A stretch of DNA of 64,000 nt from Pollutimonas subterranea (GTDB lineage Bacteria > Pseudomonadota > Gammaproteobacteria > Burkholderiales > Burkholderiaceae_B): assembly GCF_002849655.1 (NCBI RefSeq), contig NZ_PDNW01000006.1, positions 1-64,000 on the forward strand. The letters are read 5' to 3'. Position numbers and translations under genes: made by a program. Below are positions 8,287 through 60,626 of the stretch, in pieces. The notes beneath the pieces are model-generated. The model had not been told where the DNA came from and searched no databases. It saw only the letters and a list, made by a program, of their open reading frames with translations. The number at the start of each line of letters is the position of its first letter. The first letter of the stretch is position 1.

Positions 8287-9444
8287 TTGACGATCTTGCC
8301 AAAACTCTGCTTTGCCGCTTTCGTCGGTATGGCTGCCAGCGCTGCGAGTTGGGCTGGCGATGATGCGGCGCGCATTCGCGGCATCGTCGAAACCGCCATT
8401 CGTCCGGTTATGGCAGAGCATGACGTGCCCGGCATGGCCGTTGCACTTACCATCGACGGCCAGGCCTTCTATTTCAACTACGGCCTCGCGTCGAAACAGG
8501 GCAATGTACCGGTGACCGAGCGAACGCTGTTCGAGCTCGGGTCCATCAGCAAGACGTTCACAGGACTGCTGGCTGCATACGCCCAGGTGTCGGGGAAACT
8601 GTCGCTGGCCGACCACCCGGGTAAATTCATGCCCCGGCTTAAGGGAAGTGCGATCGACCGCGCCAAGCTGCTTCATCTCGGAACCTATACGGCGGGCGGA
8701 CTGCCGCTGCAATTTCCCGATGACATCATGGATGAGGCTCAGACCACCAGCTACTTTCAGGCGTGGGCTCCAGATGCCGAGCCCGGCAAGTTTCGTCGGT
8801 ATTCCAATCCAAGCATAGGCTTGCTTGGGCATATTGCGGCGCTTGCCCTGGACGGCGATTTTGCCGAGGCCATTGAAACGCGGCTCTTTCCCGAATTGGG
8901 TTTGAACAGCAGCTATGTCCGCGTGCCGCAAGAAGCGATGGCAGATTACGCATGGGGATACGACCAGGCGAATAATCCCATACGTGTGAATCGAGGCCCG
9001 TTGGACGCGCAAGCGTATGGTGTGAAGTCGTCGACCGCCGACATGATTCGCTATGTGCAGGCCAATATCGATCCAAGTCCGCTAAAGGCACCCTGGCGGC
9101 GTGCCATCAAGGACACCCATCAGGGTTACTTCACGGTCGGCGATATGGTGCAGGGACTGGGATGGGAGCACTATCGACACCCAATCACTCTGGACCGACT
9201 GTTGGAGGGAAATTCGCGCGGCATGGCTTTGGAGCCCAGGATCGCGACACCGCTGGTCCCGCCGGAATTGTCGTCGGGGCTAACCTTGTTCAACAAGACC
9301 GGTTCCACGAACGGCTTTGGCGCCTACGTGGCCTTCATTCCACAGAAACAAATAGGCATCGTGATGCTGGCGAACAGGAATTTTCCGATACCGGCCCGGA
9401 TCCGCGCGGCATATGCGATCATGGAGCAACTCACGCCTTTCTAA
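8287..9444 (+). CDS. ampC: Class C beta-lactamase (AmpC)
   Basis: A 385-residue protein of typical AmpC length with a signal sequence (about residues 1-23, ending ASWAG). The active-site serine motif SISK is in ELGSISKTFTG, the tyrosine motif is RYSNPS, and the KTG triad is NKTGSTNGFG. The family-diagnostic segment TYTAGGLPLQFPDD is intact. It should hydrolyse cephalosporins in the periplasm. The start is TTG at 8287, with AAGGA 9 bases upstream, suggesting low expression. No ampR is adjacent; the divergent neighbour is a VOC protein. The eutB gene starts only 31 bases after the stop on the same strand, so co-transcription is possible. Confidence 0.93.
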   Translation: MTILPKLCFAAFVGMAASAASWAGDDAARIRGIVETAIRPVMAEHDVPGMAVALTIDGQAFYFNYGLASKQGNVPVTERTLFELGSISKTFTGLLAAYAQVSGKLSLADHPGKFMPRLKGSAIDRAKLLHLGTYTAGGLPLQFPDDIMDEAQTTSYFQAWAPDAEPGKFRRYSNPSIGLLGHIAALALDGDFAEAIETRLFPELGLNSSYVRVPQEAMADYAWGYDQANNPIRVNRGPLDAQAYGVKSSTADMIRYVQANIDPSPLKAPWRRAIKDTHQGYFTVGDMVQGLGWEHYRHPITLDRLLEGNSRGMALEPRIATPLVPPELSSGLTLFNKTGSTNGFGAYVAFIPQKQIGIVMLANRNFPIPARIRAAYAIMEQLTPF

Positions 9445-48926: not shown

Positions 48927-49421
48927 GTGAAGAAGATTTATTTGGCCGGCTTCGACGTGTTTCGCCCGGACGCCCAGCAATACGGAGCGTTGTTGAAGAC
49001 TTTATGCGAGAAATATGGTTTCGAAGGGCTTTATCCACTGGATAACTTGGTACCCCGGAACCTGACCACCCTGGAGACGGCGCGCTGGATATACCGAGCC
49101 AATATTGCCTTGATCGAAGAGGCCGATATCGTGATGGCGAACGTGAATCTGTTCCGAGGCGCGGAGCCCGATTCCGGCACGGTGTTCGAGGTGGGCTACG
49201 CGACGGCGTTGAATAAGCCGGTGTGGGTGTATACGGATCAGTCACGTTCTTTGGTACAGCAGGTGGCGGCGCACAAGGTGCCCGGCACGCGCAGCTATGT
49301 GGATAACCTTGGCTATACGGTGGAAGACTTTGGCCTTAACCTGAACTTGATGATTGCATGCAGTGCGCACGTGGTGGTGGGGAGCGCGGAGGATTGCTTG
49401 CAGAAGATCGGTCCGGGGTGA
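48927..49421 (+). CDS. Nucleoside 2-deoxyribosyltransferase family protein
   Basis: A 164-residue protein of the deoxyribosyltransferase/DNPH fold (PF05014). The start MKKIYLAGFDVFRPDA holds the first loop, EEADIVMANVN the central strand, and SGTVFEVGYATALNKP the catalytic Glu. It moves or hydrolyses base-sugar bonds in nucleosides; some members act on nucleoside monophosphates. It follows amn after 9 bases and probably works with it. The start is GTG 48927, preceded by GGGGAAGG. Confidence 0.88.
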   Translation: MKKIYLAGFDVFRPDAQQYGALLKTLCEKYGFEGLYPLDNLVPRNLTTLETARWIYRANIALIEEADIVMANVNLFRGAEPDSGTVFEVGYATALNKPVWVYTDQSRSLVQQVAAHKVPGTRSYVDNLGYTVEDFGLNLNLMIACSAHVVVGSAEDCLQKIGPG

Positions 49422-49428
49422 GGGGTCT

Positions 49429-49453
49429 CCAGACCCGAAGTACGGGTTTCTGG
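49429..49453 (+). terminator. Bulged hairpin after the amn operon
   Basis: CCAGACCCG and CGGGTTTCTGG pair with a two-base bulge around a five-base loop, 8 bases after the deoxyribosyltransferase stop. No T-run follows, so this would be a weak or Rho-assisted terminator. The larger repeat element starts 36 bases further on. Confidence 0.4.
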
Positions 49454-49488
49454 ATCGTCGAGCGTACTAGTTTCTAGCTCCGCGCGTC

Positions 49489-49707
49489 AGGTCCTATGGG
49501 GTGGTGTTGCGCTCCTCGTTGCCGGTTCGTCGCCCTACGGCGCCGAACATCGCGTAGCCCCGCTCGTACGCCCCCTCCGGGGCTCCCTTCGCGTGCGGCT
49601 CGCTCGACCCCGAAAGTCGCTGCAACACCACCCCATAGGACCTGCCACGCTGCAACATGGAAGCTTGGAATGTCGTTGGGACGAGTTGAGTGCTTGGCCT
49701 TTTTACG
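49489..49707 (+). repeat. Intergenic palindromic element, copy A
   Basis: The element has perfect 22-bp arms (49489-49510 and 49622-49643), which begin AGGTCCTATGG on the left, around a GC-rich core. The core shares GCTCCTCGT (49511), GGGCTCCCTTCG and CGAAAGTCGC (49611-49620) with copies B and C. A 3' box follows at 49675-49707: TGGGACG, TGCTTGGC and a TTTTTACG tail. No coding function is seen in either strand. It lies just after the amn operon, between convergent genes. Confidence 0.75.
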
Positions 49708-49810
49708 AGCGTACTGCGATCGTCATTGATACCTGCCCCGATGTCCGAGCGGCCCGGCTGGCGGGACGCGCAGGACGAGCGCATGAGTTCTTTTGGACCA
49801 GCCTGACGGA

Positions 49811-50056
49811 CGCAAAAATGCCAAGCACGCAAGCCGTCCCAGCATTCTTACCAATACACGTAATACAGCCGTTGGCGCGGTGATGAAGATGTGGGAGACT
49901 TTCGTGGCGCCCGGCGTAGGGGCCTCCAGCGGGCCGGAAGCGAAGGGAACCCCTACGCCGGGCGCCCCGAATGGGGTGGACGAGCGAGGCCGCGCTGGTT
50001 CGGCGCGCAGGGCGCCGAACAGGGTCACGAGGAGCCCATATCCTCATCACCACGCC
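49811..50056 (-). repeat. Intergenic palindromic element, copy C (inverted)
   Basis: Read on the minus strand this copy has the outer GTGGTGATGAGGAT, GCTCCTCGTGA (50035-50025), TTCGGCGCC (50019-50011), a strong hairpin, CGAAAGTC (49904-49897), and the 3' box with TGGGACG, GTGCTTGGC and a TTTTT tail (49843-49811). The hairpin has perfect 17-bp arms (49906-49922 and 49950-49966). It is tail to tail with copy A and sits just past the 3' end of dctP. Region 49708-49810 between the copies holds nothing I recognise. Confidence 0.75.
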
Positions 50057-50094
50057 AGCGGCGTGTTAAGAAGAATTGTGAGCAGCGGCCCTTC

Positions 50095-51126
50095 TTACTT
50101 CTTACGCGCAGCAATATCCTTCTGGGCCTGCGAAACCAGATCTTCCCCTATGGTTTTCTTCCACTTTTCAAACACAGGCTTGGTCACCTTCACGAACGCA
50201 TCGTGCTGTTCCGGCGTCAGGCTGGTGACCGTGACGCCATGGCCTTCGATTTCCTTCAGCATGGAAGGATCTTCAGGTGTCACGCCTTTGCGTGCAATGA
50301 CGATCTCTTGCTTGGCCGCTTCGATGGCGGCCTCTTGCACGATCTTGCGGTCGGCTTCGGTCCAGGATTCCCAGACTTGCTTGTTCACCACGAAAATCAG
50401 TGGATCCGCCACGTAGTTCCATAGCGTCAGGTACTTTTGCCCTACCGTGTACAGCTTGGAACCGGCGTAGATGGACAAGGGGTTTTCCTGGCCATCGACC
50501 GCGCCACTGGCCAGTGCGGGTTGTGCGTCGGCCCAGCTCATTTGCGTGGGGTTTGCGCCCAGGGCGGTGAATGTGTCGATGTACAAGGGTGAGCCCACCA
50601 CACGCAGCTTCATGCCCTTGAGGTCCTCGGGCGCCTTGATGGCATGCTTGGAGTTACTGAGCTGCCGATAGCCGTTTTCGCCCCAGGCCAGCGGCACCAC
50701 GCCCGCTTTCTCGATGTCCTTGAATAGCTTCTTGCCGACTTCGCCGTGGATCAGCGCGTCGATGGCGGCATAGTCGGGCATGAGGAAGGGCAGTGAAAAC
50801 AGGTTCAGCTGCTTGACTTGCGGCGACCAGTTGATGGTGGAGCCAACGGCAAGGTCGATCAGGCCCTGGCGGATTGCGGTGAACTCGCGTGTCTGGTCGC
50901 CTTGTACGAGCGATGTGCCAGGGTAAATCTTGATATTGATCCGCCCGTCGGTACGCTCGCGCACCAGCTTGGACCAGATCTCGGCGCCCTGGCCCCATGG
51001 AAAGGCGGTACCTACCACGATGGACAGCTTGTATTCGGATTTGTAGTCGGCAGCGTAAGCCGTGGATGTCGCGGCAAGAGCGGCGACCGAGCAGGTGAGG
51101 GCGCCGAGTAAAGCACGAATCTTCAT
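50095..51126 (-). CDS. dctP: TRAP transporter, substrate-binding protein (DctP type)
   Basis: A 343-residue periplasmic binding protein with a signal peptide (about residues 1-25, ending AYAAD). The family segments are RIKIYPGTSL-like (RINIKIYPGTSLVQGDQT), LKGMKLRVVGSPLYIDTF and AVDGQENPLSIYAG, with the conserved Arg in KLRV. TRAP systems import organic acids with a sodium gradient; the substrate is unknown. It is the last gene of dctQ-dctM-dctP on the minus strand, 64 bases after dctM, behind AAGGA. Confidence 0.9.
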   Translation of the reverse strand: MKIRALLGALTCSVAALAATSTAYAADYKSEYKLSIVVGTAFPWGQGAEIWSKLVRERTDGRINIKIYPGTSLVQGDQTREFTAIRQGLIDLAVGSTINWSPQVKQLNLFSLPFLMPDYAAIDALIHGEVGKKLFKDIEKAGVVPLAWGENGYRQLSNSKHAIKAPEDLKGMKLRVVGSPLYIDTFTALGANPTQMSWADAQPALASGAVDGQENPLSIYAGSKLYTVGQKYLTLWNYVADPLIFVVNKQVWESWTEADRKIVQEAAIEAAKQEIVIARKGVTPEDPSMLKEIEGHGVTVTSLTPEQHDAFVKVTKPVFEKWKKTIGEDLVSQAQKDIAARKK

Positions 51127-51190
51127 GGGAATTCCTTTTTGCAGAGTTAAGACAGCTTGGAACGACAGGTCACAACGTAACTTTTCAGGT

Positions 51191-52489
51191 TCAATATCCC
51201 AGGTATCGGGGCAGCCACAAAGCCAGTTCCGGGAACACAATCACCAGCACTAGCACCATGAACATGGACGCCAGCAGCCATACGACCCATCGCACTGTGC
51301 TCTCCATGGGTACTTTGGCAATGCGGCAGGAAACCATCAGGTTGACGGCCAGTGGCGGCGTGAATTGCCCCAGCGCTACCTTGAGCGTCAGCAAGACGCC
51401 GAACCACACCGGGTCCCACTGGTAGGCGTTGGCGATAGGCATAAGCAAGGGCACGAAAATCAGGAAGATCGAAATACCGTCCAGGAACATGCCCAGGGTC
51501 ATCAGCAGCAAGACCAGCAGCGCCAGCACTCCATACTCGCCCAAGCCGGAATTGACGATGGCATGGGTGATGGGATCGATGACGCTGAGTGTGGACAAGG
51601 CCCAGGCAAAGATGCCGGCAAGCGTAACCACCATCATGATGACCGCCGACAGCTCGGCCGCTTCACGCAAGATGAGGAACAGGTCTCGAAATTTGATGGT
51701 GCGATGCACGCACATGCCTACGAAAAGGCCATAGAACACAGCGACGACGGCGGCTTCCGTGGGGGTGAAGAACCCCATGCGCATGCCACCCAATATCAAT
51801 ACAGGAGCGATGAGGCCCCACGCGGCTTCGAACATGCTGCGCCAGAACGGTGGGCGCGGCAAGTCGTGTTCGAGCACGCCCATATTATGGCGGCGCGATA
51901 GCCATACGGCCGGAATGATGAGGGCAATGCCCGCCATCAGCCCGGGCACCATGCCTGCCGCGAACATGGCAGGTACCGATGCTTGTGGAACCAGTATTGA
52001 ATAGATGATGAAAGCAATGGAAGGGGGGATCAGGATATCGGTCGATGCACCGGCTGCCACGATGCTGGCCGAAAACGGCTTGGGGTATCCGGCCTTGGTC
52101 ATGGCGCCTATCATGACGGCACCGACGGCTGCCGCGCAGGCAGGTCCGGACCCTGAAATACCCCCTAGAAACATGGCGACCGCAATGGCCACCAGCGGCA
52201 GCATGCCCGGTCCGCGGCCCACGATGGCAATGGCGAAATTGACCAGCCGGCTGGCTACCCCCGAGCGGTCGAAGATGGATCCCACCAGTACGAACATGGG
52301 AATGGCCAGCAAGGGGTATTTGGCCAGGCCGGCATAGAAGCTCTGGGGCACCGCCAGCAGGCCGAACCACTGCGTATCCAGGTTTGACAGCACGATGGCC
52401 AGCGTGCCGGCTACGCCCAGGGACACGCCTACCGGAACGCCGATGGTCATAAGCAGCAGGAAGGATACGAACAGCAGGGTGACGATCAT
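51191..52489 (-). CDS. dctM: TRAP transporter, large membrane subunit (DctM)
   Basis: A 432-residue membrane protein with about twelve helices, the DctM/TRAP-large size. It holds PMFVLVGSIFDRSGVASRLV, PPSIAFIIYSILVPQASVP and GVLLTLKVALGQFTPPLAVN, all typical. It forms the sodium-driven channel that receives solute from DctP. The start ATG 52489 overlaps the dctQ stop by 4 bases (ATGA), so the longer upstream frame is rejected. Confidence 0.92.
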   Translation of the reverse strand: MIVTLLFVSFLLLMTIGVPVGVSLGVAGTLAIVLSNLDTQWFGLLAVPQSFYAGLAKYPLLAIPMFVLVGSIFDRSGVASRLVNFAIAIVGRGPGMLPLVAIAVAMFLGGISGSGPACAAAVGAVMIGAMTKAGYPKPFSASIVAAGASTDILIPPSIAFIIYSILVPQASVPAMFAAGMVPGLMAGIALIIPAVWLSRRHNMGVLEHDLPRPPFWRSMFEAAWGLIAPVLILGGMRMGFFTPTEAAVVAVFYGLFVGMCVHRTIKFRDLFLILREAAELSAVIMMVVTLAGIFAWALSTLSVIDPITHAIVNSGLGEYGVLALLVLLLMTLGMFLDGISIFLIFVPLLMPIANAYQWDPVWFGVLLTLKVALGQFTPPLAVNLMVSCRIAKVPMESTVRWVVWLLASMFMVLVLVIVFPELALWLPRYLGY

Positions 52490-53016
52490 GCGCGCGCTCG
52501 CAGCAGGCGGCGCAGCATTCCCGCCATGCGCAGGGCGATGGCGCTTGCTAGTATGGGCATCCATATCGAATACCACCACGCCGGCACGCCGATGGCCGGC
52601 GACGTGTCGCCGTAGCTGTAATCGTCGTAAGCCATGCGCGCCGACAGCACGGCCAGCAGTATGAAGAACAGCAGCACCACGACGGCGGAAATCAGGGCCA
52701 GCCGGCGGCGGCGCTGCGCAGAGCCGCCGTCGGCAATGAGTTCTATGCGTATGTGCTGATTCCGCACAAACGCCGACGCTCCGGCTGTCATGGTCAACAC
52801 AATAAGGAGGAATACCGATATCTCTTCCGTCCACGCAAACGATGTGTCGGTAAGATAGCGTCCGATGACGTTGCCGAAGGTGATGAGCGCGAGTGAGGAA
52901 AGAATGAGTACCGACGCCCAGTCCTCGAGCTTCAGCGGTATCTTGACGGCTGGGTCCGGGATCTCGGGAAGTATGGGCTCTATCGGTTCATCGTGATGCG
53001 CATCGGGTATTGCCAT
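52486..53016 (-). CDS. dctQ: TRAP transporter, small membrane subunit (DctQ)
   Basis: A 176-residue DctQ-family subunit with four predicted helices after a Pro/Glu-rich N-terminal extension of about 35 residues. Segments such as FAWTEEISVFLLIVLTMTAG are characteristic. It is first in the operon and ends in a 4-base overlap with dctM. The substrate is not indicated by neighbours; the divergent gene beyond the SET protein is an acetolactate synthase. Confidence 0.88.
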   Translation of the reverse strand: MAIPDAHHDEPIEPILPEIPDPAVKIPLKLEDWASVLILSSLALITFGNVIGRYLTDTSFAWTEEISVFLLIVLTMTAGASAFVRNQHIRIELIADGGSAQRRRRLALISAVVVLLFFILLAVLSARMAYDDYSYGDTSPAIGVPAWWYSIWMPILASAIALRMAGMLRRLLRARA

Positions 53017-53082
53017 TGGTCTCCAACCTGTACGGCTTACTGCTTTATTGTTTTGTATCTGTTTTAAATAACAGCCAACATG

Positions 53083-53586
53083 CTAACCCGCCGCGTCGGT
53101 TTTGCGAGTCCGGGGTTTCCCGCGTTTTGGCAGTGCCAGCATAGTGCCGCGGCATGTGGACGCGCCGCACAGGCATTCGTATTGTTTGCGCAAGGCTTTG
53201 GTAATGCGTCCTTCCATGACCAGCCCGTAGTCGTAGAAGAGCTCGGCGCCCGCCGGGATATCTTGCAAGGCCACGATGTACACCCGTTTTCCCTTGGTAC
53301 TCTCCTGGGATTCGCAGTTGGGTCCGCAAGAGTGGTTGATCCAGCGCGCGTCATTGCCCTTGTCGCCGCCGTCGATGACATTGCCGCTGCTCAGGGAAAA
53401 GAAAAAAGTATGGAAGGGATCTTCCGGGTTTACCGGATGCAGCTCATCAGCTCGCTCCGATGTGATCCGCTTGCCGCCGTACTCGATGATGCGGGTGCCC
53501 TTTGGAATATCAACGGCGGCGAATACGCCCATGCCGTGCAAGGTGGATTCTTTGACGATGTGCCAGGGTTTTGATTGGGGAGCCAT
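53083..53586 (-). CDS. SET-domain protein (lysine methyltransferase fold)
   Basis: A 167-residue protein with a complete SET domain: HGMGVFAAVDIPKGTRIIEY (start), RWINHSCGPNCE (residues 82-92, SAM/catalytic knot), ELFYDYG (115-121) and a post-SET-like cysteine cluster (C138, C140, C145). Eukaryotic relatives methylate histone lysines; bacterial members are sporadic and their targets are mostly unknown. The C-terminal tail is basic (KRGKPRTRK). It is divergent from the acetolactate synthase gene with 73 bases between. Its function is open. Confidence 0.88.
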   Translation of the reverse strand: MAPQSKPWHIVKESTLHGMGVFAAVDIPKGTRIIEYGGKRITSERADELHPVNPEDPFHTFFFSLSSGNVIDGGDKGNDARWINHSCGPNCESQESTKGKRVYIVALQDIPAGAELFYDYGLVMEGRITKALRKQYECLCGASTCRGTMLALPKRGKPRTRKTDAAG

Positions 53587-53659
53587 AGGTGCGATCTGAT
53601 CAAGGCGAAAGAGGATAAACTGCTATAGATCGTTATCTTATGCAATAAAAGCGGACTCC

Positions 53660-55408
53660 GTGAATACTTCTGCCGACCCAAGCAGCCGTAATGGCGCGCA
53701 AGCATTACTCCAGACCCTCATTGCCCATGGCGTGGATACTATTTTCGGCTATCCCGGCGGTGCCGTGCTGCCGCTGTATGATGCCTTGTATTCCGAGCCT
53801 CGAATTCGCCACGTGCTGGTGCGCCACGAGCAAGGCGCGGTGCACGCCGCCGAGGGCTACGCGCGTTCCACCGGCAAGCCGGGCGTGGTTATCGTGACTT
53901 CCGGACCGGGTATGGCCAATACGACATCCGGCCTGCTGGACGCCATGTGCGACTCCATACCGGTACTGTGCATCAGCGGTCAGGTAGCGACTGGCGCCAT
54001 CGGCACCGACGCCTTCCAGGAGTGCGATGCCATCGGCATTTCGCGCCCGGTCACCAAATGGAATGCCCAGATACGGCGCACCGAAGACGTCGCCGCCATG
54101 GTTGCCAAGGCATTCACTCTGACCACATCCGGACGCCCGGGCCCTGTGCTGCTCGATTTTCCGAAAGACATGCAGATCGGCCTGGTCCCGCCCGAGGCGC
54201 CGGCCACATCCGACGGCCCTGACCTGGTCAGTGTCGAGACCACGTCCCCGGCGGCCGAGGCCGCGATCAAGCGCGCCGCTGCGCTGATTGCCAACGCGAA
54301 GCGCCCCGTCTTCTACGGGGGCGGGGGCTTGATAAATTCGGGCCTTGATGCCTGCCACGCCTTCACCAGTCTGGTGCAGGATATGGCGGCGCCATGTACG
54401 CTCACCCTGATGGGCTTGGGCGCTTTCCCGGCCGACGATCCTTTATTTCTCGGTATGCTGGGCATGCACGGAACGCTGGAAGCCAATCTGGCCATGCACC
54501 ATGCCGACCTCATTGTTTGCGTGGGAGCCCGCTTTGACGACCGGATAACCGGGCGGCTTTCCGACTTTTGCCCCCATGCCAGCAAGATCCATCTCGATAT
54601 CGATCCGGCCTCCATCAACAAGGTGGTGCGGGCCGATGTAGCCATGGTGGGCGATTGTTATCCTCTATTGCGCGCCTTGCGCCGCGAATTGGCGCAGGTC
54701 GAGCAGGCGCCCGGCCGACTGGATGCCTGGTGGCAGCGCATCGGGGTCTGGCGGGCGACCGATTGCCTGAAGGTCACGCCGTCGCCCGACCACATTCTTC
54801 CCCAGCACCTGATGCAACGGGTTGACCATGTGCTTACCGGCCTGGACGCCATTATCTCCACCGACGTTGGCCAGCACCAGATGTGGGCGGCCCAGTACAT
54901 CAAGTTCAATCGCCCCAACCGCTGGCTCACGTCGGGCGGTGCGGGCACCATGGGCTACGGCCTGCCGGCGGCCATAGGCGCCCAGATAGCACATCCGGAC
55001 AAGCCGGTGGTGTGCGTAAGCGGTGACGCCTCGGTGCTGATGAATATCCAGGAGCTTGCAACCGCCACCCAACACCAGACGCCGGTCAAGGTCGTGCTGT
55101 GCAATAACGGCCATATGGGCATGGTGCGCCAATGGCAGGAACTGATACACGACGGCCGCTATAGCCACAGCTATAACGCGTCCATCCCGGACTTCGTGGC
55201 CCTGGCCAAAGCCTTTGGATGGGGAGCCGCCCGCGTGGAGGACCCGGCCCAACTGGACGCGGCCCTGGCGGAGTGCATGGCGCACGACGGCCCGTTTTTC
55301 CTGGACGTCGTTGTGCTGGCCCAGGAAAACTGCTTTCCCATGATGCCGGCCGGCTACGGGCACCAACAAGTCATGTTGTCGGAAGACACCTGGTACGTCG
55401 AAGACTAA
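53660..55408 (+). CDS. Acetolactate synthase, large (catalytic) subunit-like, unpaired
   Basis: A 582-residue ThDP/FAD enzyme of the AHAS group. The activator Glu is in [20 protein letters not shown], the FAD region is [16 protein letters not shown], and the ThDP site is [14 protein letters not shown] with [12 protein letters not shown]. It makes acetolactate or acetohydroxybutyrate in branched-chain amino acid synthesis. No ilvH/ilvN small subunit or ilvC lies next to it, so it may be a second, unregulated copy or act on other 2-oxo acids. The start is GTG 53660, with a weak ribosome binding site. Confidence 0.85.
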
Positions 55409-55495
55409 AGAAAACCCCAATACTCTTGTAGGCACGATTGCTGTACAACTCTCGCTTGAGTCAAAAACCAACCATTTATTAGTATTAGGGACAAA

Positions 55496-56476
55496 ATGCG
55501 TAAAACGTGGATTTCAAAGTGCGTGCTGGCCGTTACGATGGCAGGCATTTTTAGTGCGGCTCCGGCATTGGCCGAAACAACGTTGAAAATGGCCTATGCG
55601 CTGTCGACCAATTCGCACTATGGCGCCGGCGCCGACGCCTTCGCCAAGGCACTGGGCACCAGCACGTCCAATAATTTCAAGGTCCAGCAGTTCGCCAATA
55701 GCGCCCTGGGCGGCGAGCGCGAAGTTATTGAAGGCCTGCAGCTTGGCACTATCGACGTCGCCATCGTATCGACCGGCGCCACGCTGAATTTCGTACCCAA
55801 AACCGGCGTTTTTGACATCCCCTTCCTGTTTCGCGACCTGGCTCACGCCCGCAAGGTGCTCGATGGCCAGATCGGCAAAGACTTGCTTGCCGAATTCCCC
55901 AAGCGCGGTCTCGTTGCACTGGCATGGGGCGAGCAAGGCTTTCGTCAGCTGACCAACAACGTTCGCCCGGTGGCCAAGCCTGAAGACGCCAAGGGCCTGA
56001 AAATCCGCACGACCGAAAACCCTATCCACATTGCTGCATTCCGCGAACTGGGTGTGCTGGCCACGCCCATGGCATGGCCGGAAGTCGCCACAGCCTTGCA
56101 GCAAGGCACCATAGACGGACAGGAAAATCCGCTGTCGGTTATCGTGTCGGCCAAGTTGCCGCAGTTGCAGAAGTACCTGTCGCTGACCGCCCATGTGTAT
56201 GGTCCCGCCCTGGTACTGATGTCGCCTAACGTCTACAACGACCTGTCCGATGCCGATAAGGCCAAGTTCCAGGCAGCCGGCCATGATGCCGCAATCGCCA
56301 TGCGCGATTATGTCGATGCCGTGGAAAAAAGCGGTCTTGAAGAAGTCAAGAAGCAGGGCATGAAGGTCAATACCGTCGACCAAGCAGCGTTCGCCAAGGC
56401 TGTTGAGCCCGTCTATCCTCAGTATTACAAGCAGTTCGGCAAGGATTTGGTCGAATCGATCCGCAACACCAAGTAA
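55496..56476 (+). CDS. dctP: TRAP transporter, substrate-binding protein (DctP type, second system)
   Basis: A 326-residue binding protein with a signal peptide (about residues 1-26, ending ALAET). Family segments include SNNFKVQQFANSALGGEREV, LKIRTTENPIHIAAF and GTIDGQENPLSV. It differs from the dctP at 50.1 kb (only moderate similarity by eye), so the two systems are not a recent duplication. The ATG follows AGGGA. A strong hairpin separates it from dctQ downstream, so it should be made in excess over the membrane subunits. Confidence 0.9.
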   Translation: MRKTWISKCVLAVTMAGIFSAAPALAETTLKMAYALSTNSHYGAGADAFAKALGTSTSNNFKVQQFANSALGGEREVIEGLQLGTIDVAIVSTGATLNFVPKTGVFDIPFLFRDLAHARKVLDGQIGKDLLAEFPKRGLVALAWGEQGFRQLTNNVRPVAKPEDAKGLKIRTTENPIHIAAFRELGVLATPMAWPEVATALQQGTIDGQENPLSVIVSAKLPQLQKYLSLTAHVYGPALVLMSPNVYNDLSDADKAKFQAAGHDAAIAMRDYVDAVEKSGLEEVKKQGMKVNTVDQAAFAKAVEPVYPQYYKQFGKDLVESIRNTK

Positions 56477-56500
56477 TTCAATTCGGCTTTTTTGCAATAT

Positions 56501-56526
56501 AAGGGCTGACGCAATCGTCAGCCCTT
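56501..56526 (+). terminator. Strong hairpin between dctP and dctQ
   Basis: AAGGGCTGACG and CGTCAGCCCTT form perfect 11-bp arms around a CAAT loop, 25 bases after the dctP stop. A moderately T-rich stretch (TTGTTGATTCTTTC) follows. It probably acts as a partial terminator or 3' stabiliser, so the binding protein is produced in excess over the membrane subunits. Confidence 0.75.
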
Positions 56527-56583
56527 GTTGATTCTTTCTCGAACATACTGCATCAGGCCAGCCAGACATATACAGGACAAGCC

Positions 56584-57078
56584 GTGCCAATTATCCGCAT
56601 CATGGACCGCAGCTTATTCCGGTTCGTTTCTGTCGTAACGCAGCTCCTATTGCTGTCCTCCGTGGCGGCGGGATTTTACCAAGTCGTCGCGCGCTTTGTG
56701 CTGGAGTCGCCGGCCGACTGGAGCGAGGCCTGGACACGAGCGTCGCTTATCTGGACCGTCATGCTGGGTGTTGCGCTTGCGTTTCGGCAAGGCGCCATGC
56801 TAAGCGTCGAAATGCTGCACAGCATGCTGGCACCCCGCAACAAGCGGTGGCTCGAGCACGTAATACTGTTTATCTGCGTAAGCTTTCTGGGTTTCATGGC
56901 TTGGGCCGGCGGGCAAATGACCTGGCGCGTGCGCTTCCAGACCATGCCCAGCCTCGACGTATCGATCTCCTGGGTGTACATCTCGATTCCCATAGGCATG
57001 GTCCTGGCCATACTCGCCGTAGTTTCCTTTTGGGCTGAAGGTCCGCGCGTGGCCGTTGTTGACGATACCGTCATCTGA
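56584..57078 (+). CDS. dctQ: TRAP transporter, small membrane subunit (DctQ, second system)
   Basis: A 164-residue DctQ-family protein with four predicted helices (VTQLLLLSSVAAGFYQVVAR, WSEAWTRASLIWTVMLGVAL and later segments). GTG 56584 is the likely start, as AGGA lies 6 bases before it; ATG 56602 is an alternative. It follows the dctP hairpin and is 49 bases before dctM. Confidence 0.88.
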   Translation: MPIIRIMDRSLFRFVSVVTQLLLLSSVAAGFYQVVARFVLESPADWSEAWTRASLIWTVMLGVALAFRQGAMLSVEMLHSMLAPRNKRWLEHVILFICVSFLGFMAWAGGQMTWRVRFQTMPSLDVSISWVYISIPIGMVLAILAVVSFWAEGPRVAVVDDTVI

Positions 57079-57127
57079 TCCACCGATTCCAAGCCGCTAA
57101 CTAACAATGCACACGCCGGGTGAATGA

Positions 57128-58405
57128 ATGTCGCAGTTGATGGTTGTTTCAATGTTGTTGTTTTTTGTGCTGTCTGTTCCGGTGGCTGTTGCTATCGGGC
57201 TGGGCAGCATGCTGGGAATTGCTTTTGATGGCAAGATGACATGGTTGGTCGTCGCTCAGCAAATCTATGCGTCGCTCGACAAGTATCCCCTGGTCGCCGT
57301 GCCATTCTTCATCCTTGCCGGCAACCTCATGGAGGCCGGTGGCATTTCCGAGCGCATGGTGGCGTTTGCAAAAAGCGTGGTGGGTGGATTCCAGGGCGGC
57401 CTGGCCTGCACCTGCGTCCTGACCTGCATGATCTTTGCCGCCGTGGCCGGTTCAAGCGTGGCCACCACTTTTGCGGTGGGCGCCATTCTTATTCCTGCGA
57501 TGGTCCAGCATGGCTACCCCAAGCCTTTTGCTGCATCGTTGCAGGCTTCTGCGGCGGAACTGGGCGTGATCATCCCGCCTTCCATCCCCATGATCCTGTT
57601 CGCCGTTGCAACTGATACCTCCGTTGGCGAGCTCTTCATTGCCGGTATAGGCCCCGGCTTGCTCATCAGCGGGGCCTTGATGCTGTACGTGTGGCTGTAC
57701 GCACGCAGGAATGGCTATGGCAAGAACGATGGCGACGGGCGCCTGGCGCTATGGCCGGCTTTCAAGCAGGCCTGGCTTGCACTGCTGATGCCGGTCATTA
57801 TTCTGGGCGGCATCTACGGCGGTATCTTTACGCCTACAGAGGCCTCGGCCGTGGCGGTCGTTTACGCCCTTGTCATTGGAATATTCGTCTATCGGCGCCT
57901 GACTTTCGCGAACCTGTCCAAGACCTTGCACCGGTCTGTCGTCTCCACAGCGGTGATCATGTTCGTGATCGCCAACGCGGGCGTCTTCGGCTTCCTGCTT
58001 AACCGGGCCGGCATCCCTGCCGCGCTCGGAGAATGGCTGGGCGAGATTTTCAGCAGCAAATACACCTTTCTGCTGGGCGTCAATGCCGTCCTGTTCGTCA
58101 TCGGCATGTTTATCGAGACCTCGGCTTCCATCGTCGTGCTGGCGCCTTTGCTGCTGCCGGTTGCCATGCATTTCGGCGTCGATCCAGCGCACTTCGGGAT
58201 CATTATGGTGGTAAACCTGGCGCTGGGCATGGTGACGCCGCCGTTCGGGGTGAATCTGTTCGCGGCATGCGCGGTGGCCAAACTCCCCATCGAGAGGCTG
58301 GTCCGCCCGCTCTTGCCCTTCGTTGGCGTGATCGTGGCGTGCCTGTTGCTGATTACTTATATTCCGGAGATATCGCTCTTTTTCAAAGAGCTGGTTTACG
58401 GGTAG
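57128..58405 (+). CDS. dctM: TRAP transporter, large membrane subunit (DctM, second system)
   Basis: A 425-residue DctM protein with about twelve helices. Family segments are VPFFILAGNLMEAGGISERM, IIPPSIPMILFAVATDTSVG and MVTPPFGVNLFAACAVA. It is the last gene of the dctP-dctQ-dctM unit. Its ribosome binding site is weak. The downstream 252 bases hold repeat copy B and no other gene, and the next gene is convergent. Confidence 0.92.
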   Translation: MSQLMVVSMLLFFVLSVPVAVAIGLGSMLGIAFDGKMTWLVVAQQIYASLDKYPLVAVPFFILAGNLMEAGGISERMVAFAKSVVGGFQGGLACTCVLTCMIFAAVAGSSVATTFAVGAILIPAMVQHGYPKPFAASLQASAAELGVIIPPSIPMILFAVATDTSVGELFIAGIGPGLLISGALMLYVWLYARRNGYGKNDGDGRLALWPAFKQAWLALLMPVIILGGIYGGIFTPTEASAVAVVYALVIGIFVYRRLTFANLSKTLHRSVVSTAVIMFVIANAGVFGFLLNRAGIPAALGEWLGEIFSSKYTFLLGVNAVLFVIGMFIETSASIVVLAPLLLPVAMHFGVDPAHFGIIMVVNLALGMVTPPFGVNLFAACAVAKLPIERLVRPLLPFVGVIVACLLLITYIPEISLFFKELVYG

Positions 58406-58445
58406 GAGCGACGGCTGACGCGCGTCGATGGTTCGTTGCTTCTCG

Positions 58446-58659
58446 ACATGTCGGCGGGGTGGTGGCGAGGATGTCCGCTCCTTGTGGCCCTATTCGGCGC
58501 CTTCGCCGCCCGTTCGGGCTCCTTTCGCCGACAGCCCGCTGGGGCGCCCCTATGCGGGCGCCCCGAAAGTCGCGAACATCCCCACCAGCACCCCTCCGAC
58601 TGCATAGGGGATGATTGCAGGTTCGCTGGGACGATCGGCATGCTTGGCATATTAGCGTC
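58446..58659 (+). repeat. Intergenic palindromic element, copy B
   Basis: The outer segments GGGGTGGTGGCGAGGATGT and its imperfect complement ACATCCCCACCAGCACCCC bracket a core with GCTCCTTGTGGCCC, TTCGGCGCC (58493-58501) and a GGGGCGCCC/GGGCGCCCC hairpin (58541-58549, 58556-58564). CGAAAGTCGC follows at 58564-58573 and the 3' box (TGGGACG, TGCTTGGC) at 58625-58659. It fills the gap between convergent dctM and the ABC gene, and its last two bases overlap that gene's stop codon. Confidence 0.75.
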
Positions 58660-59656
58660 AGATGCGGCCTTCTTCCAGGCCGTGACAGGCGGCTTTGGTA
58701 TCGCCATATGAAAGGGTGGCGGGCGCCTCGATGCGGCAACGGTCGTTGGCGTGAGGGCAACGTGGGTGGAAGGTGCAGCCCGTGGGAGGGTTCAAGGGAT
58801 TGGGTACCTCGCCGCCCACCGGAACGCGGGCGCGGCCTGCGCCGGTGAGGTCGGGGATGGCTCCCAGCAACATGCGCGTATACGGATGCCGCGGGTTGGC
58901 AAACAAATCGTCGCGCGTGGCGACTTCCACCAGCCGGCCCAGGTACATGACGCCGATGCGGTCGGCTACGTGATGGACGACGGCCAGATTGTGCGAGATG
59001 AACAGGTAGGTCAGTCCCAGGTCGCGTTGCAGGTCTTTCATCAAGTTCAGCACTTGTGCCTGCACCGACACGTCAAGGGCGGATGTGGGTTCGTCGCAAA
59101 CAAGGAACTCCGGCCCAAGGGCGAGCGCGCGAGCAATCGAGATGCGCTGACGTTGGCCGCCCGAAAACTGGTGCGGGTAGCGATTCTGGTCGTTGGGGTC
59201 CAGGCCTACCTGGGCCAGGAGTTCGTCTACCTTGCTGCGTTGCTGGGCAGCCGTCATGCGGGTGTGCGTTGCCAGGGGTTCGGCGATGATGCGCCCCACG
59301 CGCCATCGCGGATTCAGGCTTGCATACGGGTCCTGGAAAATCATCTGCAGCCGTTTGCGCATTGCGTGGCGCGCCTTGCGGCTCATGGACTGTACCGTCT
59401 GGCCGTCGAACTCGATGCTGCCGTGGGAGGGCTGGTACAGGCCCGCCAGCAGGCGGGCAATCGTCGATTTGCCGCAGCCCGATTCGCCCACCAGCGCCAG
59501 TGTTTCGCCTTTATTGATGTGGAACGATACGCCGTCTACCGCGCGCAGCGTGACGCGCGGCTTTCGATGAATGACTCGATCCAGCCATGGTATGGATACG
59601 TCAAACCAGCGCGCGGCATCGTTGACCAGTATGAGCGGATGTTCAGGCGGGTTCAT
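58658..59656 (-). CDS. Oligopeptide/dipeptide ABC transporter, ATP-binding protein (DppF/OppF type)
   Basis: A 332-residue ATPase with Walker A GESGCGKST, Q-loop MIFQDPYASLNPRW, signature FSGGQRQRISIARAL, Walker B FLVCDEPTSALD and switch FISHNLAVV. The oligopeptide-type C-terminal extension is present, with the Cys-rich CTFHPRCPHANDRC. The start at 59656 follows AGGAG with 7-base spacing and overlaps the upstream ATPase gene by 14 bases. Longer upstream residues are not used. Confidence 0.92.
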   Translation of the reverse strand: MNPPEHPLILVNDAARWFDVSIPWLDRVIHRKPRVTLRAVDGVSFHINKGETLALVGESGCGKSTIARLLAGLYQPSHGSIEFDGQTVQSMSRKARHAMRKRLQMIFQDPYASLNPRWRVGRIIAEPLATHTRMTAAQQRSKVDELLAQVGLDPNDQNRYPHQFSGGQRQRISIARALALGPEFLVCDEPTSALDVSVQAQVLNLMKDLQRDLGLTYLFISHNLAVVHHVADRIGVMYLGRLVEVATRDDLFANPRHPYTRMLLGAIPDLTGAGRARVPVGGEVPNPLNPPTGCTFHPRCPHANDRCRIEAPATLSYGDTKAACHGLEEGRI

Positions 59657-60626
59657 GAGTGTGCTCCTGCGCATGCAGCCAACAGGCGGCGCGGCTTGCT
59701 GCCGCGGACAAGAGCTCAGGCCGCTCCTGCGTGCAGCGAGGCATGGTGAACGTGCAGCGCGGATGAAAGGCGCAGCCCGGCGGTATGGCGTTAAGTCGCG
59801 GCATGCTGCCGTCGATCTGCACCAGCCGTTCCACGTTCTTGTCCAGCATGGGGATGGACCCCATCAGTCCTGCCGTGTAAGGGTGCTGCGGGTGCCGGAT
59901 GACATCGGCCACGGGGCCAAGCTCGACAATGCGGCCCGCATACATGACGGCGACCCGGTCAGCGGTCTCGGCGATGACGCCCATATCGTGCGTAATCAGC
60001 ATGACTGACGCTCCTTGCGATTTGCACAGCGTCTTCAGCAAGTCAATGATCTGCGCCTGTATCGACACGTCCAGCGCTGTGGTCGGCTCGTCGGCCACGA
60101 TGAGCTTGGGCTGGGCGGCAAGGGCCAGGGCGATGACCACCCGCTGGCGCATGCCGCCCGAGAAATGGTGCGGATAGTGATCAATGCGTTCGCGCGCCGC
60201 GGGAATTCCCGTGGATTCCAGCAACTCGATGGCGCGCTCGCGCGCCTGCTTTTGCGATAGCGGCAGGTGCGTGACGATGGTCTCGGTAAGCTGCTGGCCG
60301 ACGGTGTACAACGGGTTGAGCGAAGTCAGCGGGTCCTGGAAGATGGCCCCGATCTCGCGTCCGCGTATGCGGCGCATCTGGCCGTCGGGCAAATTGTCGA
60401 TGCGCTTGCCGTCCAGCAGGATTTCGCCGCCTGATATCCGTCCGGGTGGATCCAGCAGCCCGATAATCGATGCGCCGGTCAGCGACTTTCCTGCACCGGA
60501 CTCGCCCACCACACCCAGGATCTCTCCCTGCGCGATGGTGAAGCTGACGTCCTGCAACGCCTTTAGCGTGCCGCGCCGACTGGGAAATTCGACGTTAAGG
60601 TTTCTGACTTCAAGGAGTTCGGTCAT
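59643..60626 (-). CDS. Oligopeptide/dipeptide ABC transporter, ATP-binding protein (DppD/OppD type)
   Basis: A 327-residue ATPase with Walker A GESGAGKSLTG, Q-loop IFQDPLTSLNPL, signature HFSGGMRQRVVIALAL, Walker B LIVADEPTTALD and switch ITHDMGVIAE. The oligopeptide-type tail holds CAFHPRCTFTMPRC. It works with the DppF-type ATPase encoded next. The gap to the permease gene upstream is 12 bases. Confidence 0.93.
   Translation of the reverse strand: MTELLEVRNLNVEFPSRRGTLKALQDVSFTIAQGEILGVVGESGAGKSLTGASIIGLLDPPGRISGGEILLDGKRIDNLPDGQMRRIRGREIGAIFQDPLTSLNPLYTVGQQLTETIVTHLPLSQKQARERAIELLESTGIPAARERIDHYPHHFSGGMRQRVVIALALAAQPKLIVADEPTTALDVSIQAQIIDLLKTLCKSQGASVMLITHDMGVIAETADRVAVMYAGRIVELGPVADVIRHPQHPYTAGLMGSIPMLDKNVERLVQIDGSMPRLNAIPPGCAFHPRCTFTMPRCTQERPELLSAAASRAACWLHAQEHTHEPA

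Follow-up and report, generated by a model that had tools for sequence, protein, structure and literature searches.

ERIC, NEMIS/Correia, and similar repeats are noncoding, dispersed, foldable, and probably nonautonomous. REPs are palindromic units of 20 to 40 bp, and the REP/BIME families tagged by GTAG or CGTC are dispersed, palindromic, and intergenic, often as inverted dimers, and lie 3′ of genes and between convergent or unidirectional ones (PMC3733652). ERIC and NEMIS/Correia are themselves named as intergenic hairpin repeats (PMC3110155 and PMC1590033). The ~90-bp Beta-proteobacterial repeat element (BRE) occurs in tandem copies, also in the Comamonadaceae and Rhodocyclaceae, and is described as mostly intergenic, possibly mobile, and situated in a transcribed region (PMC3110155). 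Bordetella, a genus of similar bacteria, carries the stem-loop families Bor (26 to 30 bp), Bor-1, and Bor-2 (167 nt, 17 members), the last two being intergenic (PMC1590033 and PMC2267715).

A 64,000-nucleotide stretch of the Pollutimonas subterranea genome (the window) holds three repeat copies, A, B, and C, that share the listed features of REP/BIME. Unlike REP/BIME, however, the family here consists of branched units of ~200 to 250 nt with closing arms of free sequence, forms pairs of ~0.5 to 0.9 kb, and is without a RAYT in 20 of 25 carriers. It is like ERIC and NEMIS/Correia in being noncoding, dispersed, foldable, and probably nonautonomous but differs in pairing tail to tail (31 of 31 close pairs of element matches are convergent), in having arms that vary but match, and in strand-biased folding. 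Like BRE, it is betaproteobacterial, mostly intergenic, and possibly mobile, but its model matches are confined to one bacterial family among the genomes scanned, a separation made by description and not by letters. The Bor units of 26 to 30 bp contrast with ~200 to 250 nt here, and Bor-1 and Bor-2 were compared by description only.

Elements A, B, and C and their family

The preliminary description listed three copies with shared boxes, and these were recovered where it had put them; a covariance model built from eight copies, with A among them and B and C outside, found both B and C. In element A (plus strand), the left outer arm (49482 to 49510, 29 nt) is 93% complementary to the right outer arm (49622 to 49650), with 111 nt between them. 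The outer arms reported for A as 22 bp perfect thus exist, with their size corrected to 29 nt, of which 23 bp are perfect. The conserved branched core (49511 to 49621; model match at 49498 to 49635, 121.6 bits) has the boxes GCTCCTCGT ... GGGGCTCCCTTCG ... CGAAAGTC in that order and two predicted hairpins. The tail (49651 to 49707), which includes TGGGACG..TGCTTGGC.TTTTT, has counterparts in other genera, and the spacer of the A/B pair (49708 to 49805) contains a GC-rich hairpin, resembled by central hairpins in other copies.

Element B lies on the minus strand. Its tail (49806 to 49867) is an inverted match to that of A (36 nt, 81%) and is followed by the right outer arm (49868 to 49896), a core with an extra hairpin (49897 to 50034; model match at 49881 to 50048, 77.7 bits; fold predicted), and the left outer arm (50035 to 50062). 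Element C (plus strand) has a left outer arm (58450 to 58478), a core with a part missing and an extra hairpin (58479 to 58571; model match at 58464 to 58587, 33.5 bits; fold predicted), a right outer arm (58572 to 58600), and a tail (58601 to 58659) reaching as far as the opposing gene's stop codon (58658); the covariance model found no partner element near C. B and C likewise have outer arms, by reading and arm alignment, which corrects the earlier view that each copy has either outer arms or an inner hairpin. The inner stems had been interchanged: the 17-bp perfect stem belongs to B, within a 22-nt, 95% inverted pair, and the 9-bp stem belongs to C.

The 3′ box TGGGACG...TGCTTGGC occurs at 49677 to 49698 (plus), 49820 to 49841 (minus), and 58627 to 58648 (plus, one mismatch). 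Taken alone, this pattern is weakly above chance, as 7 of 100 shuffles gave three matches at ≤3 mismatches. The window contains seven occurrences of CGAAAGTC, compared with an expectation of 1.48, and three of the seven are inside A, B, and C. Upstream of A is a gene of the nucleoside 2-deoxyribosyltransferase family (48927 to 49421, plus; PF05014, E 3.6e-39), and a convergent gene for the TRAP solute-binding protein DctP adjoins B (50095 to 51240, minus; PF03480, E 1.3e-74). Element C lies between genes for the TRAP transporter DctM (57128 to 58405, plus; PF06808, E 2.5e-125) and a convergent oligopeptide ABC transporter ATPase (58658 to 59674, minus; PF00005 and PF08352). As had been proposed, no coding frame is plausible: open reading frames crossing the elements overlap in several frames, and the same is true of one composite copy.

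The three elements are part of a dispersed repeat family. The covariance model found 13 copies in the P. subterranea genome (E 6e-31 to 2.5e-4, with C the weakest), and with A as the query, relatives elsewhere in it appeared at E 6e-33 to 7e-9, plus one at 5e-4; the family is thus far above chance. Across the genomes scanned there were 158 distinct model matches, all in one bacterial family and none outside it; 11 lacking sequence were left out, as were 3 more without flanks, so that 144 were used for folding strand and arm re-pairing. An order-wide scan found the element in at least 3 of 399 genomes, all 3 from the same bacterial family, a lower bound because at most eight candidates were scored per genome. 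A pattern scan of named genomes gave three loci only, all in Candidimonas sp. SYP-B2681. Rfam gave no match in the whole window at the gathering threshold or at 49400 to 50100 (A and B, with C outside) up to E 5, a plasmid search with A found nothing, nor did a plasmid and phage search with one composite, and no paper listed by open-access literature searches was recognized as describing the repeat, the BRE and Bor families being set apart by description only. Thus, these are structured intergenic elements of ~200 to 250 nt, found here in one bacterial family, and the family is apparently undescribed so far. The idea of a structured, dispersed family without a named match therefore stands, and the single-unit view was incomplete, since two elements often stand tail to tail within a larger, composite unit.

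Closing arms and folding strand

Each copy has outer arms of ~29 to 40 bp enclosing the branched core, and arm sequences vary between copies yet match within a copy. In the alignment of model pairs, which was itself fitted to the model, 897 cells were double changed, compared with 284 in shuffles, and the covariation score was 0.523 versus 0.139 in shuffles and 0.047 to 0.085 with the partners slid. None of the outcomes that the preliminary description had named as refuting it came about: the genome has 13 copies, covariation is far above the shuffled level, and Rfam gave no match. When arms were re-paired within each genome, the own-arm match total of 5967 exceeded all 2000 permutations (mean, 3730; maximum, 4143); in the arm survey, 8 of 147 arm alignments scored <24 and went uncounted. 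Where copies share an upstream gene, arm complementarity was kept in 40 cross-genome copy pairs, which are mutually nonindependent, and one dsbD-like locus (gene family by domain search) carries the element in five genomes, across genera. All four Watson-Crick pairs occur in the arms, and wobble pairs are few. In genome G153, rare variants per site numbered 12/360 in arms, 33/291 in the core, and 141/815 in tail plus spacer. Taken together, the closing stem of ~29 to 40 bp is largely free in sequence with its complementarity kept, around a conserved branched core and beside a conserved tail. That the arms change but keep matching suggests that a folded molecule is kept by selection. We dropped an origin of the arms from the target site, since the same arms recur at different sites among the recent copies of G002, G130, and G153.

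The strand on which the boxes had been written (the box strand) is not the better-folding one. Its reverse complement gave the stabler fold in 130 of 144 copies and, by genome average, in 24 of 24 genomes. This excess was greater than in shuffles for 53 of the 56 copies tested (at most three per genome, from the 144), with shuffled sequences also favoring the reverse complement, by 4.0 of 9.5 kcal/mol. DNA folding parameters favored the same strand in 140 of 144 copies, so the bias fits either RNA or single-stranded DNA. Genome G009 had almost no strand difference (−0.4 for the whole element, +0.6 for the core). On the box strand, arm mismatches beyond the outer six positions were A.C 42 times versus G.U 13 times, and pyrimidine-pyrimidine 24 times versus purine-purine 7 times (arms scoring ≥26; a related arm count took ≥30). 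Over all 32 model pairs, G.U and A.C were about equal (90 versus 83; first 125 of 134 rows), and the asymmetry is therefore confined to the arms. Part of it may be mutational, because G153 variants in tail plus spacer show a slight tilt in this direction (50:38) and those in arms are even (5:5). A first idea, in which DNA correction with no strand bias maintains the arms, was weakened by the strand-biased stability and mismatches.

Gene context, composites, and dispersal

The upstream gene was co-oriented with the element in 112 of 137 copies, and 89 of 129 copies lay strictly between convergent genes, the other 40 not being called convergent. For comparison, the window has 10 convergent pairs among its 58 adjacent gene pairs; 8 of these 10 gaps measure −31 to 69 nt, and the remaining two, which hold the elements, measure 673 and 252 nt. 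Most copies lie between convergent genes and have their closing stem close to the stop codon of a gene. No sigma-70 promoter-like site and no intrinsic terminator-like site (a GC-rich hairpin and then a T run) was seen in the A/B region or the L098 composite. In one copy, L008, gene and element are separated by a terminator-like hairpin and its T run, and so the gene's own transcript may end before the element. A sigma-54-like spacing in the tail, checked by eye, was dropped as inconstant.

In G153, a pair with its spacer forms a composite of ~0.9 kb, present whole or in part at 33 listed places, and has dispersed as one unit. Nine aligned G153 loci have inverted ends and flanks that are unrelated outside the shared ends; no target-site duplication was seen by eye in these nine, and there was no close empty site with flanks alignable to the ends. 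The L098 composite is absent from a related site in G152, and A/B are absent from related sites in G002 and G004, which makes the element dispensable there. Among nine genomes of the G153 genus, G152 and G156 gave flank matches only. Many copies at unrelated sites together with absence from related sites are as expected of a MITE, and the earlier suggestion of a nonautonomous mobile element rests on this dispersal and absence; neither a target-site duplication nor a transposase was found, Y1_Tnp being the sole mover searched for. This Y1 transposase (PF01797) was present in 7 of 38 genomes searched, 5 of them among the 25 carriers, and was absent from the other 20 carriers and, by name, from G000, G002, G003, G004, G009, G022, G025, G130, and G153.

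Explanations for the paired elements

We tentatively favor, at slightly less than even confidence, a paired RNA roadblock or 3′-end insulator that acts on the reverse-complement strand and was spread as a nonautonomous composite by some enzyme. The functional molecule would be the strand opposite the box strand, as RNA or single-stranded DNA, and each element's functional strand would be produced when transcription enters it from the opposing gene or the spacer. Transcription running past one gene would then let the hairpin of the distal element fold just before antisense entry into the opposing gene, and the folded hairpin may favor stopping, processing, or 3′-end protection at that point. 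The family probably spread as a nonautonomous composite moved by a putative enzyme. Arguing for the insulator are the covariation, own-arm matching, shared-locus complementarity, folding strand, convergence of pairs, gene context, and low arm variation in G153. Weighing against it are the lack of promoter- or terminator-like sites in the A/B region and L098 composite, the L008 hairpin, G009, the dispensable sites, and the 40 of 129 copies not called convergent, as well as the near equality of G.U and A.C overall, the possibly mutational asymmetry, the bias of shuffles, and the shared prediction of RNA and single-stranded DNA.

A purely selfish nonautonomous mobile element, whose reverse-complement hairpin would be the single-stranded DNA substrate of some transposase or recombinase and whose convergent location would reflect only the harm of insertion elsewhere, is a real possibility that falls well short of probable. 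The composite places in G153 with their unrelated flanks, the presence or absence at related sites, and the strand preference under DNA parameters are all consistent with it, whereas the copies behind the same dsbD-like gene in five genomes (though repeated insertion is possible), the missing Y1 transposase in 20 of 25 carriers, and the lack of a target-site duplication by eye in the nine aligned loci speak against it. A REP/BIME moved by a RAYT would fit the inverted intergenic pairs 3′ of genes, and BIME-like repeats were among the earlier suggestions; we rejected a RAYT mover as highly improbable because PF01797 is absent from G000 and 20 of 25 carriers, and the units of ~200 to 250 nt are far above 20- to 40-bp REPs (PMC3733652).

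The location mostly between convergent genes also suits a DNA-level palindrome, or cruciform, that might provide a site for gyrase, HU, or IHF where the DNA between convergent genes is supercoiled, with arms matched by templated correction between them. A DNA-level role of this type has been proposed for some REPs and BIMEs, and the four Watson-Crick pairs with little wobble and the low arm variation within the G153 burst agree with it. We nevertheless consider it unlikely, since a cruciform would extrude both strands, and the strand bias of stability and arm mismatches does not fit this. Alternatively, the spacer could lie between a pair of small RNA genes that are read outward from it and work in trans, for instance through titration of a protein on purine-rich, GGA-containing loops. 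Such genes would account for the conservation of the tail, which would be the 5′ end, and for the GGA-containing internal loops on the reverse-complement strand, which may resemble CsrA/RsmA sites. Trans action would need no placement at gene 3′ ends, and with no sigma-70 promoter-like site in the two regions inspected, we regard it as quite improbable.

With the insulator reading, the elements could be structured RNAs of a new class, paired insulators of convergent genes that are read on the invading strand, have a closing stem that drifts but is rematched, and spread as a pair without a known transposase; we hold this wider claim to be doubtful. Many dispersed bacterial hairpin repeats are without an agreed function. 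Because this one family combines very strong covariation and strand-biased folding with a preference for the ends of convergent genes and with occurrence at a shared locus in different genera, the question of selfish spread versus 3′-end function is directly testable here, and the family is a candidate entry for RNA databases.

Elements A, B and C, their anatomy and their relatives

The three copies reported in the preliminary description were confirmed in the window sequence: A (49482-49707, plus strand), B (49806-50062, minus strand) and C (58450-58659, plus strand). A and B are paired tail to tail in a 673-nt gap between the convergent nucleoside deoxyribosyltransferase and dctP genes, and C occupies a 252-nt gap between the dctM gene and an ABC ATPase gene that points the opposite way. 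Because the remaining eight convergent gaps called in the window measure only -31 to 69 nt, the elements explain the two long ones. Outer arms are present in all three copies, and the inner-stem lengths first assigned to B and C were swapped: the extra core hairpin is 17 bp in B and 9 bp in C. These two GC-rich hairpins sit at comparable positions in the cores of B (49897-50034) and C (58479-58571) and are absent from the other aligned copies.

In the orientation first described, the element opens with a short outer end (TTCTT-GACGTCG-like), inside which lie a left arm of ~29-40 nt and, directly inside the arm, GCTCCTCGT. The core comprises a first hairpin, GTTCGGCGC..GCGCCGAAC, and a longer, interrupted second hairpin containing TCGTCCG..CTCCCTTCG; CGAAAGTC separates the latter from the right arm, which is followed by CTGCA and by a tail consisting of GGGACG..TGCTTGGC and then a T-rich stretch. 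A recognisable tail of this type is also found in other genera. At three loci (L004, L005, L009), short tandem copies of the outer end, with units TTCTTTTGA or TCTTGACAC spaced 16-25 nt, stand just upstream of the left arms. Just outside the element, the strand read out from the adjacent gene is G/T-rich (0.37, 0.31) and A/C-poor (0.13, 0.20), as measured 25-60 nt before the model match in copies with enough flank.

BLAST with A found relatives elsewhere in the same genome, and eight of its copies were used to make a covariance model, R1 (135 positions, 32 pairs), which matches 13 copies there. In a scan of 61 genomes, R1 gave 126 matches in 16, own genome included. Within the host's bacterial family, at least 23 of 268 genomes carry matches when up to 12 candidates are scored per genome; this is a lower bound, since G149, G150 and G151 contain element pieces yet are absent from that list. 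The two scans together yielded 158 distinct matches, and sequence was available for 147 of them; additional matches in G159 were left out of the counts. Outside the family, R1 matched none of the 24 genomes in the 61-genome scan and none in a 399-genome scan with eight candidates scored per genome. Rfam gave no family match, plasmids no match to A, and plasmids and phages no match to one composite (left element, spacer and right element).

Arm complementarity and the better-folding strand

Arms are unrelated between many copies and complementary within each copy. The summed own-arm score is 5967, versus a mean of 3730 (sd 125, maximum 4143; 2000 permutations) when arms of the same genome are re-paired. 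Where a genome's copies share arms, swapped arms often match equally or better, and the own arm is best in 3 of 23 copies in G002, 4 of 10 in G130, 1 of 12 in G153, 2 of 6 in G025 and 6 of 17 in G022; it is best in every copy of G003 (4/4), G006 (8/8), G014 (4/4) and G024 (4/4). Double changes occur at 30 of the 32 model pairs in a 134-row alignment, with 897 double-changed cells versus 284 in shuffles and 135-206 with partners slid, counts that are favoured by the alignment because its rows were fitted to R1. Copies with a similar upstream gene gave 40 cross-genome pairs (blastn, ≥200 nt), which are not independent where they come from one locus. A dsbD-like gene, assigned by family search on the G006 copy, has an element behind it in G000 (the host genome), G004, G006, G022 and G024. 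The G000 copy (C13:306-439 and C5:115910-115975; L002, L006) is interrupted by a sequence resembling an insertion sequence, the ends of which fall at two contig ends, so the arms of this copy could not be scored. At the A/B locus, G000 and G003 differ at many positions in the B arms, which are complementary in each, and at few in the A arms, not all compensated (A arms score 48 and 43 with their own partners and 43 and 53 after swapping).

On the strand first described, when copies that repeat one context in the same genome are entered a single time, arm mismatches beyond the outer six positions comprise 42 A.C, 13 G.U, 24 pyrimidine-pyrimidine and 7 purine-purine, and those in the outer six comprise 33 A.C, 2 G.U and 29 others; a slightly different count gave 70 A.C, 14 G.U and 58 others. 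The opposite strand turns these mismatches into G.U and purine-purine, which are better tolerated. It is the more stable strand in 130 of the 144 copies, with a difference that averages 9.9 kcal/mol across the whole set, and, on average, in 24 of 24 genomes, although in G009 the advantage is only 0.4 kcal/mol and the core leans 0.6 the other way. The strand excess surpasses shuffles in 53 of the 56 copies tested (-9.5 in the real sequences versus -4.0 in shuffles). Against this bias, G.U (90) and A.C (83) are about equal over all 32 model pairs. Part of the arm asymmetry is possibly mutational, since variants in the G153 tail and spacer lean the same way, 50:38 (Fisher p = 0.02 for 42:13 versus 50:38), and its arm variants stand at 5:5.

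Pairing, gene context and dispersal

Sixty-two of the 126 matches have a neighbour no more than 3 kb away, which gives 31 pairs, every one of them convergent. Because palindromes also give weak antisense matches, the G001 pair (overlapping weak matches) and one G022 pair (2412239/2412377, 11 nt apart, with weak scores) may not be real. A home-made hexamer gene caller gave the upstream gene the same orientation as the element in 112 of the 137 copies for which it made a call, and convergent neighbours in 89 of the 129 with calls on both sides; the other 40 (17 +/+, 13 -/-, 10 -/+) probably include caller errors inside spacers. As background, 10 of the 58 adjacent gene pairs in the window are convergent. 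At L008, a terminator-like hairpin and T run follow the stop codon, ~100 nt before the element.

The G153 composite (~0.85-0.96 kb) matches at least 33 places; 11 of those listed are covered by a single match of 677 nt or more, and the other listed matches are pieces or partial, several at contig ends. Both halves are present at >80% of length in 18 of 31 loci fetched. In nine aligned loci the flanks beyond the shared ends are unrelated, and two of these loci are without most of the left half. Within this G153 burst, rare variants (≤2 copies) are scarcest in the arms, with 12 over 360 sites, followed by the core, with 33 over 291, and are most frequent in tail and spacer, with 141 over 815. 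Arms differ consistently between the left half and the right half, and each half thus folds on itself without needing its partner.

Where L098 has a 958-nt composite between its aligned flanks, G152 has only 181 nt, bounded by the same pair of convergent genes; the G019 site is a 1.1-kb gap with another gene present, and other relatives have gaps of 2.4-2.7 kb (length only). The element-free site L208 (G152:C19, ~8676-8830) contains a different palindromic repeat, of the GGTGCCTGGCTCC...GGTGTCTGGCACC type. The A/B site, occupied in G000 and G003, is about 55 and 25 nt in G002 and G004, with a short palindrome, and has a different neighbour gene in G001.

Known repeat families and a proposed role between convergent genes

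In place and pairing, as described in PMC3733652, the elements resemble REP/BIME repeats; the RAYT transposase (PF01797), however, is absent from 20 of 25 carriers among 38 genomes searched, and we rejected a RAYT-linked REP/BIME assignment. BRE differs from the elements here in being ~90 bp and tandem (PMC3110155). Among the Bordetella stem-loop families Bor (26-30 bp), Bor-1 and Bor-2 (PMC1590033 and PMC2267715), Bor-2 (167 nt; PMC2267715), compared by its description, is the hardest to exclude as a relative. The names of the group and the word "convergent" do not occur in PMC12306157.

Three features together (conservation of the fold, arms that re-match and a location by stop codons) point to a molecule acting where convergent genes meet. 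The main rival is a selfish element whose folded strand would be a single-stranded-DNA substrate, and the strand data fit RNA and single-stranded DNA alike. Since transcription from the opposite side would make the favoured strand of each element, our preferred reading is a paired RNA that serves as a roadblock or 3'-end insulator. Neither of the two regions scanned (the A/B region and the L098 composite) yielded an intrinsic terminator or a sigma-70 promoter; such a role would thus call for factor-dependent stopping, processing or end protection, and we infer the termination or protection step. The paired element would then stand as a roadblock or insulator between convergent genes and would have spread as a non-autonomous composite.
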